From a virus: 37,863 nucleotides of DNA. Location: positions 1-37,863 of the IMG/VR virus record IMGVR_UViG_3300043775_000843. The stretch is one strand, 5' to 3'. A program made the translations under genes and the position numbers. Shown one piece after another: positions 2,046 to 30,836 of this stretch. The notes below the pieces were generated by a model that worked only from the letters and a program-made list of their open reading frames with translations, searched no databases and was not told where the DNA came from. Numbering within the stretch: the stretch's first letter is position 1; each line of letters opens with the position of its first letter.

Positions 2046-2168
2046 ATGCCGCAGAACGAGATCCAGTGGCTGATGTTCCTGTTCTTCGCCGTGGGCGCGC
2101 TCGGCGGCTGCATCTACCTGGTGCAGCTGGTGGCTGATGCCGCCCGCGCTTTGTCGAGGCGTGGGTGA
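2046..2168 (+). CDS. Single-pass membrane microprotein (40 aa)
   Basis: ATG 2046 lies one base after the preceding TGA. The 40-residue product has one membrane helix (WLMFLFFAVGALGGCIYLVQLV) with polar ends MPQNEIQ and ADAARALSRRG. The stop overlaps the GTG start of the DpdA-like gene, so it sits inside the coupled operon. Function unknown. Confidence 0.5.
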   Translation: MPQNEIQWLMFLFFAVGALGGCIYLVQLVADAARALSRRG

Positions 2169-2845
2169 TCCACTATCACGGCACGCCTATCTCGCCAGTC
2201 GCGCGGCTTTATGAGCTCGCCGGCGCGCATTTCTGCGTGTCGTATATGGCCCCGAAGGACGTTAAACGATGCCACGAAATCGGCCAATCTGTCATGCTCG
2301 ACAACGGCGCATTCTCTGTGTGGAAGCGTGGCGCAACGCCAGACTGGCATGGCTATTACAAATGGTCAGACCAGTGGCTCGATTGTCCGACGACATGGGC
2401 CATCATCCCTGACATCGTAGAAGCCGATGAAGGTGCCCAAGACGCTTTGATTGAGGAGTGGCCGCACGGATTTCAGGGGTCGCCAGTTTGGCACCTGCAC
2501 GAAAGCTGTGACCGCCTGCTGCGTCTGATCGACCATTGGCCGCGTGTCTGCATGGGGTCAAGCGCGCAGTACTCCGTGCCGCTGTCTGATCCGTGGCGGC
2601 GCCGGATGGATGAGGCGTGGAACGCGATCGCAGCTAAAAACGCCCGCACGCCCTACATCCACATGCTGCGCGGGATGGCCTGCTCCGGGGAGCGGTGGCC
2701 GTTTGCCAGCGTCGATAGCACCGACATCGCCCGCAACCATAACCGCCCGCAAAACACGCCGCGTGCCATGCGCGACCGCTGGGATGCCGTGCAATGTCCG
2801 ATTAATTGGAGCCCGGCTCCGCAGCAGATGGAGCTCATCGCATGA
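2165..2845 (+). CDS. DpdA-like tRNA-guanine-transglycosylase-fold protein (7-deazaguanine DNA modification candidate)
   Basis: A 226-residue protein that I read as a short TGT/DpdA-type base-exchange enzyme. Motifs in order: LDNGAF (45-50, D46) corresponds to the SDSGGF/LDSGxF aspartate region of TGT; IIPDIV (80-85); WHLHES (109-114); MGSSAQY (130-136); HMLRGM (166-171); and SVDSTD (182-187), where D184 matches the nucleophile region of DpdA proteins. The C-terminal zinc-binding cysteine motif of tRNA-specific TGT is absent and the protein is much shorter than the about 370 residues of bacterial Tgt. DpdA enzymes exchange guanine in DNA for a 7-deazaguanine. GTG 2165 overlaps the preceding stop, and its stop overlaps the YhhQ-like gene (ATGA), linking it to precursor supply. 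Activity on DNA is inferred. Confidence 0.68.
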   Translation: MIHYHGTPISPVARLYELAGAHFCVSYMAPKDVKRCHEIGQSVMLDNGAFSVWKRGATPDWHGYYKWSDQWLDCPTTWAIIPDIVEADEGAQDALIEEWPHGFQGSPVWHLHESCDRLLRLIDHWPRVCMGSSAQYSVPLSDPWRRRMDEAWNAIAAKNARTPYIHMLRGMACSGERWPFASVDSTDIARNHNRPQNTPRAMRDRWDAVQCPINWSPAPQQMELIA

Positions 2846-3348
2846 GATACCTGGTTTTCCTCGCCTTCCTCGCCACGGTGCCGCTCGCCAACTGGATGAT
2901 CGGCAACGTCGGCACTGTATGCATCCCTGACGGACCATGCTTGCTGCCGGTTGGCTTCGGCCTGTCGGCACCAAGCGGTGTCTTGGTCATCGGCGTAGCT
3001 TTGGTCTTGCGTGACTTTGTACAGCAGCAACTGGGCATCCGCTGGGCTTTCGCAGCTATTGCCTGCGGTGTCGTGTTGTCTGCTGCGGTTGCGCCGCCTG
3101 CGCTCGTCGTCGCATCGGCGGCCGCTTTCCTGCTGTCAGAGCTCGCCGATCTTGGCGTCTACACCCCCTTGCGGCGCCGTGGTCTGGCGCTAGCAGTCCT
3201 TGCCTCGGGTGCCGTTGGTTCTGTCGTCGATAGCGCAGTGTTCCTGTTGCTGGCATTCGGATCGCTTGACTACATCGGCGGCCAGGTGGTCGGAAAGCTG
3301 TGGATGACTGGCCTTGGCGCGGCGGTTCTCGCGTGGAGGCGCAAGTGA
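2842..3348 (+). CDS. VUT/YhhQ-family queuosine-precursor transporter
   Basis: A 168-residue integral membrane protein of the VUT family (YhhQ), whose characterised members import preQ0/preQ1-type queuosine precursors. Visible hallmarks are ANWMIGNVG near the N-terminus, APSGVLVIGVALVLRDFVQ (the conserved RD segment), ALVVASAAAFLLSELADLGVY and SVVDSAVFLLLAFGS. About five or six hydrophobic segments are present. ATG 2842 overlaps the stop of the DpdA-like gene (ATGA), so the two are translated together. An upstream in-frame start at 2806 is unlikely because it lies inside the DpdA gene. With no queuosine-biosynthesis gene visible, import of host or medium precursor is the likely supply route (inference). 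Confidence 0.8.
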   Translation: MRYLVFLAFLATVPLANWMIGNVGTVCIPDGPCLLPVGFGLSAPSGVLVIGVALVLRDFVQQQLGIRWAFAAIACGVVLSAAVAPPALVVASAAAFLLSELADLGVYTPLRRRGLALAVLASGAVGSVVDSAVFLLLAFGSLDYIGGQVVGKLWMTGLGAAVLAWRRK

Positions 3349-3533
3349 TGGCCGACCGCAAGGCGTCGTTCAAGAAGGCCGACTTGGAGCGGGCGCTGAA
3401 GGCGATCCGCGATACCGGCATGACGATGGCGGTGGAGGTGACGCGCGACGGGACGATCCGCCTGATCCCATCCGAGACGATGCGCGCTCAGGTTGAGACC
3501 GGCAGAAAGACACGCGCACCCATTCCGTTATAA
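3348..3533 (+). CDS. Small hypothetical protein upstream of integrase (61 aa)
   Basis: ATG 3348 overlaps the TGA of the transporter gene. The protein starts MADRKASFKKADLERALKAI and ends with a basic tail. I recognise it only as a small protein type often found before integrase genes in alphaproteobacterial phages. Its size, charge and position would suit an excisionase or DNA-architectural role, but no winged-helix signature is clear, so function stays open. Confidence 0.6.
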   Translation: MADRKASFKKADLERALKAIRDTGMTMAVEVTRDGTIRLIPSETMRAQVETGRKTRAPIPL

Positions 3534-3542
3534 GGTGGCACC

Positions 3543-4613
3543 ATGCCCAAGCGCAAACTCCCCCACCTGAACTATGAGCGCGACCGCCACGGGACCCGCC
3601 GCTACTATGTCCGCATCCGCCACGGCAGGCGGATTGCGATCGCCGGCGAGTATGGCACGTCGGAGTTCATGGAGAGCTACAGGGCAGCCCTTGCCGGTGC
3701 CCCGCAGCCATCAGCCCGCCAGCCGCGCGGCACGATGAACTGGCTAGCGGCCCGGTGGCGCGAGAGCTCCGACTGGTCGGAGACATCTATGGCGACCAGG
3801 CGCCAGCGCGAGAATATCCTGAAGCATGTACTGGACAAGAGTGGCAGCTGCGACTGCGCGGACATCACCAAGGCCGACGTTCGGCTGGGCAAGGAGAGCC
3901 GGAAGGCCACGCCGGCCGCCGCCAACAATTTCCTGAAGACGATGCGCGCCCTGTTCCGCTGGGCGGTGTCGGAGGAGATCCTGCCCGACAACCCGGCGCA
4001 GGGCGTGCCGCTGTTCCCCAAGCGCAAGGGCCACGTCGGCTATGTGCCGTGGACGATCGACGATGTCGAGGCGTATCGGGACGCTTACCCACTGGGCACG
4101 CGCGAGCGCCTGGCGCTGGAGATTGCGATCAACACCGGGCTGCGCCGCGGCGACATCGCCCGGCTGGGCCGCCAGCACCTCCGCAATGGGGTGATCGACA
4201 TCAGGACCGAGAAGACCGGCGTGCAGCTATTCATCCCGCTGCTGCCGAAGCTGCAGGAGGCGATCGAGGCTGGCCCGGTGGGCGACATGGTCTTCCTGGC
4301 TGGCAAGCGCGGTGGGCGACCGATGCGCAAGGAGAGCCTCGGCACCCTCTTCCGCACCTGGGCGAAGGCTGCCGGCGTCACCAAGCGCCTGCACGGGCTG
4401 CGCAAGCTGTGCGCCACGATCATTGCCGACGACGGCGCCAGCGAGCTTGAGCTCCAGGCACTGTTCGGCTGGCTCACCAACAGCCAGTCTGCGGTCTACA
4501 CCAAGGACGCCAACAATAAGCGCCTGGCGCTGCGGGCGGCCATGCGTTTGATCGAGGCGGAAGGTGATGACGAGGACGACGACGAGGCCAGAACGGGAAC
4601 AAAACTGCCCTAA
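3543..4613 (+). CDS. int: Tyrosine-family phage integrase
   Basis: A 356-residue site-specific recombinase. An N-terminal arm-binding-like basic region (RHGTRRYYVRIRHGRRI) is followed by a SAM-like core-binding domain (about 65-160) and the catalytic domain. Catalytic residues read as R201 or R202 (INTGLRRGDIARLG), K224 (TEKTG), H284 and R287 (HGLRK), W310 in the His/Trp position (LFGWLTN) and Y319 (SAVYTKDA). Trp at the fifth position is seen in Cre, so the enzyme is probably active. The acidic tail (EGDDEDDDEA) is unusual. It starts at ATG 3543, 10 bases after the previous stop, with AAGG upstream. The gene faces the end of the late operon across the candidate attP, as expected for a temperate phage. 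Confidence 0.93.
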   Translation: MPKRKLPHLNYERDRHGTRRYYVRIRHGRRIAIAGEYGTSEFMESYRAALAGAPQPSARQPRGTMNWLAARWRESSDWSETSMATRRQRENILKHVLDKSGSCDCADITKADVRLGKESRKATPAAANNFLKTMRALFRWAVSEEILPDNPAQGVPLFPKRKGHVGYVPWTIDDVEAYRDAYPLGTRERLALEIAINTGLRRGDIARLGRQHLRNGVIDIRTEKTGVQLFIPLLPKLQEAIEAGPVGDMVFLAGKRGGRPMRKESLGTLFRTWAKAAGVTKRLHGLRKLCATIIADDGASELELQALFGWLTNSQSAVYTKDANNKRLALRAAMRLIEAEGDDEDDDEARTGTKLP

Positions 4614-30017: not shown

Positions 30018-30231
30018 CACGCGCCTCCAGCGCAAGTGCTGCGCGGGCAATATCTTGGAACCATTCGCTACAGCTATCGCGCTCTGTGCTGGCAATCTCC
30101 CGCAGCGCAGCCCGCAGCCGCTCAATCTCCGCCGCAGCCTCGCGCAGCCCAATCGTCAGGTGCTGCGGCGCGTGCTGGTCCTCCCACTGCTGCGCCTGCC
30201 GGATCAGCCAGGCGGCGGTGTCGTCGCTCAC
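30010..30231 (-). CDS. Hypothetical protein with EIERLR coiled coil (73 aa)
   Basis: Reads MSDDTAAWLIRQAQQWEDQH, then AAAEIERLRAALREIASTERD and WFQDIARAALALEARDE. Shares AAAEIERLR...RAAL with the gene at 29706-30017, suggesting relatedness by duplication or a mobile small domain. Stop codon region overlaps the next gene, start overlaps the recombinase end. Confidence 0.6.
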   Translation of the reverse strand: MSDDTAAWLIRQAQQWEDQHAPQHLTIGLREAAAEIERLRAALREIASTERDSCSEWFQDIARAALALEARDE

Positions 30232-30836
30232 GCCGTCATCTCCTTCTTGATGCGCTGAACCGTCAGCTTGCCGACGCCCAGCTGCGCAGCAATCTTGTTC
30301 ATCCCCACGCCGGCGCCCAGCTGGTCGCGGATCTGCTGCTCGACCTTGGCGCCAACCTTCGGCCGGCCCAGCTTCACGCCCTTCCGACGCGCCGTCTCCA
30401 GGCCCGTGTTGATGCGCTCGATGATCGTCTCACGCTCAAACTCCGCAACCGCCGCCAACACCGTGAACATCAGCTTGCCCGTGGGCGTCGAGGTATCAAT
30501 CGCCTGCGTGTAGGCGCACAAGTCAACGCCGCACGCCTTCAGGTGCTCGGCATTGTTGTGCAGGTCGATCACGCTGCGGCCCAGCCGGTCCAGCTTCCAG
30601 ATCAGGACGACATCAAACTTGCCGCGCGTGGCATCCGCCAGCATCGCGTCCAAGGCCGGGCGGCTCGTCTTGCTGCCGGAGTAGCCCGTGTCGTCGTACA
30701 CCGCCGCAATCTCCCAGCCGCGGGCGGCGCAGGCTTGGCGGAGGACGTGCTCCTGGTTCTCAGTCGTCTGCTTGCTGGTGCTGACGCGGACGTAAATGGC
30801 GGCGCGGCGTGTGATTTTTTTTGCGGGGGTGTGCAT
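30228..30836 (-). CDS. Small serine recombinase (resolvase/invertase family, 202 aa)
   Basis: Resolvase domain: AAIYVRVSTSKQTTENQ with nucleophile S19, AVYDDTGYSGSKTSRPALDAML, VVLIWKLDRLGRSVIDL (the conserved DRLGRS) and AAVAEFERETIIERINTGL. The C-terminal HTH is GVGMNKIAAQLGVGKLTVQRI. Length fits Tn3 resolvase or Hin/Gin-type invertases rather than large serine integrases. ATG 30836 has GGAG seven bases upstream. With a tyrosine integrase already present, its role may be dimer resolution, DNA inversion or cassette mobility. Confidence 0.88.
   Translation of the reverse strand: MHTPAKKITRRAAIYVRVSTSKQTTENQEHVLRQACAARGWEIAAVYDDTGYSGSKTSRPALDAMLADATRGKFDVVLIWKLDRLGRSVIDLHNNAEHLKACGVDLCAYTQAIDTSTPTGKLMFTVLAAVAEFERETIIERINTGLETARRKGVKLGRPKVGAKVEQQIRDQLGAGVGMNKIAAQLGVGKLTVQRIKKEMTA

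Follow-up and report, generated by a model that had tools for sequence, protein, structure and literature searches.

A DpdA-like enzyme gene coupled to a short VUT-family transporter gene in phages: a candidate two-gene module for 7-deazaguanine salvage

How do phages that carry a dpdA gene and no preQ0 genes supply their enzyme with a base, and are the enzymes of this large class active? The question was left from 2019, and it is raised again by the window analysed here, the whole of one virus record of 37,863 bases (63% G+C). Profile search of the window revealed a phage gene set of terminase, portal, scaffold, tail and integrase genes. The portal protein is nearest to two uncultured Caudoviricetes records from a spring (about 56%), its nearest relative in an isolate being that of Sinorhizobium phage phiM5 (51%). 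From this gene set, with its integrase, and from the portal relatives, we take the window to be a temperate phage, the host of which is probably alphaproteobacterial. Besides the tyrosine integrase, a resolvase/invertase-type recombinase (PHROG 125) is encoded at 30228-30836; a run of C at 21-43, near the record start, is probably an assembly artefact. The genes of interest lie in a packed, co-directional run that begins with an HTH regulator (668) and ends with the integrase (4613):

668-865, + strand: HTH regulator (Pfam HTH_3, E 7e-13), at the start of the co-directional run
862-1332, + strand: RuvC-like resolvase (PHROG 1770, E 1.6e-27)
2046-2168, + strand: small upstream ORF of 40 aa in the same packed run, with a GTGA overlap with the enzyme start
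2165-2845, + strand: DpdA-like guanine transglycosylase (ORF1), 226 aa, GTG start, PHROG 887, zinc-less
2842-3348, + strand: short VUT/YhhQ-type (QPTR) transporter (ORF2), 168 aa, ATG start, Pfam Vut_1
3348-3533, + strand: small downstream ORF that overlaps the transporter stop as TGATG and immediately precedes the integrase
3543-4613, + strand: tyrosine integrase (Pfam Phage_integrase, E 3.5e-16)

ORF1 and ORF2 overlap as ATGA at 2842-2845, as the earlier note on this DNA had claimed, and their codon-position differences from the nearest relative (locus L009), 30/21/106 for ORF1 and 43/20/103 for ORF2, indicate that both are under purifying selection. The same note had seen no folE, queD, queE or queC homologue, and we agree: profile search gave no PTPS/QueD, FolE or TGT match in the whole record, and custom-built profiles found no QueD, QueE or QueC in the window. 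No Rfam match to a preQ1 or similar riboswitch and no tRNA genes were found within the window.

The first gene had been described as bearing TGT/DpdA-type motifs and lacking the zinc site and the length of tRNA Tgt, and this description is borne out, since LDNGAF, MGSSAQY and SVDSTD are all found in a protein of 226 aa that has no CxCxxC zinc motif. ORF1 matches PHROG 887, 'queuine tRNA-ribosyltransferase', over residues 1-191 (E 3.9e-46). The Pfam and NCBIfam models gave no match at all, including those for DpdA (PF23859) and for canonical bacterial TGT (PF01702), and a PDB sequence search, by protein and by profile, returned nothing. When profiles were compared, the ORF1 family aligned with the Pfam-DpdA family of phage phiLM21 (P 0.0015), so that the DSGAF/DNGAF motifs fall in register, as do the SxDS motifs, and gave no significant match with the host TGT. 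A PHROG 887 gene with 38% identity, similar to the Salmonella phage matches, is also found in the 1.7-kb 'Staphylococcus phage' record OR850331.1; a gene of this kind is otherwise typical of enterobacterial phages, and the record is possibly mislabelled.

Structure prediction points in the same direction. The AlphaFold model of ORF1 (pLDDT 91, pTM 0.87) has eight strands, and the residues that are invariant across 38 homologues (D46-N47-G48, D83, H110, G131, H166, R169 and D184-S185) are placed by it at or just beyond the ends of strands 3 to 8, a predicted placement that is the active-site layout of a TIM barrel. D46, D83, H110, G131, H166 and D184 are the predicted active-site residues. The key residues of TGT are D102, D156, Q203, G230 and D280, to which we take the D-D-(H)-G-D order of ORF1 to correspond, the mapping following motif order only. 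The fold and catalytic layout of TGT/DpdA were found in the model, with Asp at the ends of strands 3, 4 and 8 and Gly at strand 6. The structural matches in BFVD are phage TGT-like proteins with E values of 1e-7 and below, and those outside the family of ORF1 include phage 'queuine tRNA-ribosyltransferases', the Dinoroseobacter phage R5C enzyme and a Vibrio phage nt-1 protein. A fold search of the PDB ranked archaeosine TGT first, at a non-significant E of 0.013 and among many TIM barrels, and is therefore not taken as proof. We conclude that ORF1 belongs to the phage TGT/DpdA superfamily as a minimal member without the zinc site and lies outside the DpdA family of Pfam, and that 'DpdA-like' is the correct label for it.

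ORF2 belongs to the VUT/YhhQ family, as had been proposed, with a Pfam Vut_1 (PF02592) score of 40.9 bits against a cut-off of 27.2 (E 3.6e-10); its score with the NCBIfam equivalog TIGR00697, 'queuosine precursor transporter', is 37.7 bits and lies under the cut-off of 50.95. Close relatives of ORF2 stand directly 3′ of queC on several alphaproteobacterial host chromosomes (L390, L391 and L393-L395), two of these five loci having the gene order queE-queD-queC-VUT, which agrees with a 7-deazaguanine substrate. These preQ0 makers thus also retain a short VUT transporter, whether for import or export. In three other chromosomal loci (L392, L396 and L397), queC lies close to large ORFs and to a weak match for TGT, and these may be dpd-type islands of bacteria; the sole queC of the host of L277 lies in one such stretch (L392).

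How regularly does the transporter accompany a TGT-like gene? Viral contigs were scanned with transporter peptides alone, which gave 79 loci, and the partners were then called by homology models, a TGT-like gene within 700 nt and on the same strand as the transporter being counted as paired. Such a neighbour was present in 76 of 76 informative viral loci, 65 belonging to the family of the window (PHROG 887, family A) and 11 to a second one (PHROG 15826, family B); in the remaining 3 of the 79 the transporter sits at a contig end. The pairing holds in 27 of 27 informative clusters at 80% identity, and the next commonest genuine neighbour of the transporter was seen in 9 of 46 loci after dereplication. 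The transporter of phage phiLM21 is paired with a Pfam DpdA (PF23859, E 2e-43), and Rhizobium phage RHph_N3_2 carries the pair with the ATGA overlap of the window. The recurrence of the pair in dozens of unrelated phage contigs is far beyond chance, and the co-occurrence survey suggested in the earlier note is strongly positive. A tree of 105 transporters (a quick tree with many weakly supported branches) requires 15 or more switches of enzyme family, which the co-inheritance of one old pair cannot account for and which means that the pair was re-formed repeatedly.

Two further ideas were considered and rejected. The phage transporters that seemed to occur alone all had a neighbour of another TGT-like family, were cut by a contig end (L029, L066 and L093) or lay on a piece of bacterial chromosome (L007). 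Family A by itself does not predict a transporter, most of its enterobacterial and Vibrio members having none.

Family B of the transporter partners, PHROG 15826, has no named function. A barrel fold is predicted for it, and the matches of the model at E 2-3e-4 include TGT and DpdA (7ui4) beside other TIM barrels; the family carries DNG, APDVV, QDG, GG and GCDS in TGT order, and its profile aligns with that of family A at P 2.6e-5. This family, comprising L069:7357-7959 and about 60 distinct relatives of it, looks like a minimal TGT/DpdA enzyme. Among 76 loci centred on it, 63 have an adjoining transporter: 59 have the transporter only and 4 the transporter with biosynthesis genes, while 5 have biosynthesis genes only and 8 neither.

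The loci centred on family A, viral and genomic together, show an alternation between import and synthesis, since 48 have the transporter, 26 have queD-like, queE or queC genes, none has both and 70 have neither within reach. The QueE of these loci matches the equivalog TIGR04508 in full. A short length and the lack of the catalytic Cys region leave the activity of many queD-like proteins uncertain. In L128 (2687-3004), L004 (5705-6001) and about 17 further loci, the family-A gene is overlapped or immediately preceded by the gene of a short QueD-like (PTPS) protein, about 100 aa long; this protein retains the DH pair and the zinc histidines and misses the catalytic Cys region, and to judge from these residues its chemistry may differ from that of QueD. 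The idea that import and synthesis exclude each other everywhere was rejected, both being present in 4 PHROG 15826 loci and in Seuratviruses (PMC8310023). The earlier note's proposal of a TGT/DpdA-superfamily enzyme coupled to a precursor transporter in place of encoded biosynthesis is supported by the pairing survey and by this alternation. That the transporter imports something else, or aids the queuosine of lysogens' hosts as a fitness gene, with its adjacency incidental, appears very improbable to us: ORF2 does score below the TIGR00697 cut-off, and the substrate of the short VUT subfamily has, as far as we could find, never been measured, but the adjacency in all 76 informative loci, the partner switches among three TGT-like families, the alternation with queD/queE and the chromosomal relatives beside queC all argue against it.

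The hosts were examined for their own queuosine genes. queC is missing in 5 of 15 genomes with a transporter-type family-A locus, versus 2 of 47 without the transporter. As far as searched, these five queC-less hosts also lack QueD but have TGT and VUT-type transporters, and they look like precursor salvagers; four of the five are metagenome bins and possibly incomplete, the isolate being Rhizobium subbaraonis (L283). The Fisher p values, 1.2e-5 for the alternation and 0.007 for the hosts, ignore shared ancestry and count some contigs twice, and cluster counts are given for this reason. The transporter form is weakly linked to hosts without queC, most of which have it.

Taken together, we regard it as probable that the two genes form a salvage-type 7-deazaguanine module, in which an importer and DpdA-like exchange in phage DNA replace supply by queD/queE/queC. 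In such a module, the short VUT/QPTR protein would be placed in the inner membrane of the host and take up a 7-deazaguanine base, preQ0 or preQ1 being the likeliest from the characterised family members, and the DpdA-like enzyme would swap selected guanines of the phage DNA for it by the TGT mechanism, with D184 as the putative Asp nucleophile, D46 as the Asp acid/base and D83 as the base-binding Asp. The transporter would then substitute for the queD/queE/queC carried by sister loci and make the phage independent of the queuosine status of its host. The import direction, the exact base, DNA as the target, the sequence specificity and the anti-restriction benefit are what we infer here. It is very likely that the transporter supplies a 7-deazaguanine to the enzyme.

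That phage DNA is the acceptor is likely by analogy, because there is a precedent within the family: Pantoea phage MED16 carries a homologue of PHROG 887 and lacks preQ0 genes, and its virion DNA contains dADG (PMC8306585). The main rival target is tRNA. The pair could modify host or phage tRNA in infection, in a queuosine-type manner, the transporter raising the precursor pool and the small transglycosylase acting on tRNA, and for this purpose transporter and queD/queE would be equally useful; the family names read tRNA-ribosyltransferase, and some phages with preQ0 genes and no DpdA may boost queuosine (PMC6884629). We consider this unlikely, since full-length TGT is already present in 28 of 29 hosts tested and the zinc-containing part of TGT is missing from the enzyme, the sequence of which is also distant from TGT; the dADG-containing phage speaks against it as well.

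For DNA as the target, the benefit may be escape from restriction. The dADG of MED16, however, is 0.13% of G, that of Salmonella phage 7-11 is 0.02%, and the restriction enzymes tested on MED16 DNA were not affected (PMC8306585, PMC6884629). A modification at a few specific sites or at a very low level, which would be a regulatory or packaging signal and not a restriction shield, is thus a possible alternative, though we hold it to be the less probable one; the levels may be precursor-limited in laboratory media, which a transporter would cure. Counting against the salvage module are also the 70 family-A loci without either supply gene nearby, the transporter score under the equivalog cut-off, the null comparison with host TGT and the non-significant PDB fold ranking. 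The same holds for the tiny dADG content of MED16, a putative product of the gene (PMC8306585), and for mycobacteriophage Orion, which is dpdA-only and had no modification (PMC6884629).

On a wider reading our opinion is evenly balanced. It holds that a widespread two-gene phage salvage kit makes a modified DNA base wholly out of scavenged precursor, with a short QPTR importer and an enzyme from any one of three or more TGT-superfamily groups (PHROG 887, PHROG 15826 and Pfam DpdA). The kit would have been put together many times over, would be interchangeable with phage-borne queD/queE and would serve chiefly in hosts unable to make preQ0. If true, PHROG 15826 would be an unrecognised family of DNA (or tRNA) guanine transglycosylases. 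The conserved importer-enzyme pair offers an answer to the supply question for dpdA-only phages, marks those to assay and the precursor to add to the medium, and singles out PHROG 15826 as a candidate enzyme family. A further suggestion from it is that such modifications may go unseen in standard laboratory media, which are poor in preQ0/preQ1.

Phage DpdA, and YhhQ in some phages, are already known. The near-obligate two-gene phage module, the import-or-make alternation of family A, the repeated exchange of partners and PHROG 15826 as a further TGT-like partner appear to be new, although an earlier report of the pair is possible. Hutinet et al. (2019) defined DpdA 'group 3' as dpdA without preQ0 genes and saw YhhQ in some of the phages surveyed, uncorrelated with any group (PMC6884629). 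The window resembles group 3 in having one TGT-like gene, no folE/queD/queE/queC and a presumed host or imported precursor; unlike in that survey, the transporter here has a TGT-like neighbour in every informative locus and occurs in alternation with biosynthesis genes. The DpdA of MED16 shares about 43% identity with ORF1 over 84% of the protein and likewise comes from a phage without preQ0 genes, but is longer and has no transporter neighbour, and the modification level is very low. The deazaguanine cluster of Enterobacter phage EC151 and other Seuratviruses combines a phage preQ0 transporter with DpdA; there the transporter is found together with a full folE-queD-queC-queE pathway, whereas in the window it stands in the place of one (PMC8310023). 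Bacterial dpd islands, in which DpdA (crystal structure 7ui4) lies near preQ0 supply genes and YhhQ occurs in about 9%, are host defence systems with dpdB-K, while the window has two phage genes and no other dpd gene was seen in it (PMC11888242). The window transporter, finally, resembles the QPTR/YhhQ transporters such as E. coli YhhQ in its Vut_1 match and, at 168 aa, is shorter than the 221 positions of the PRK11212.1 model.
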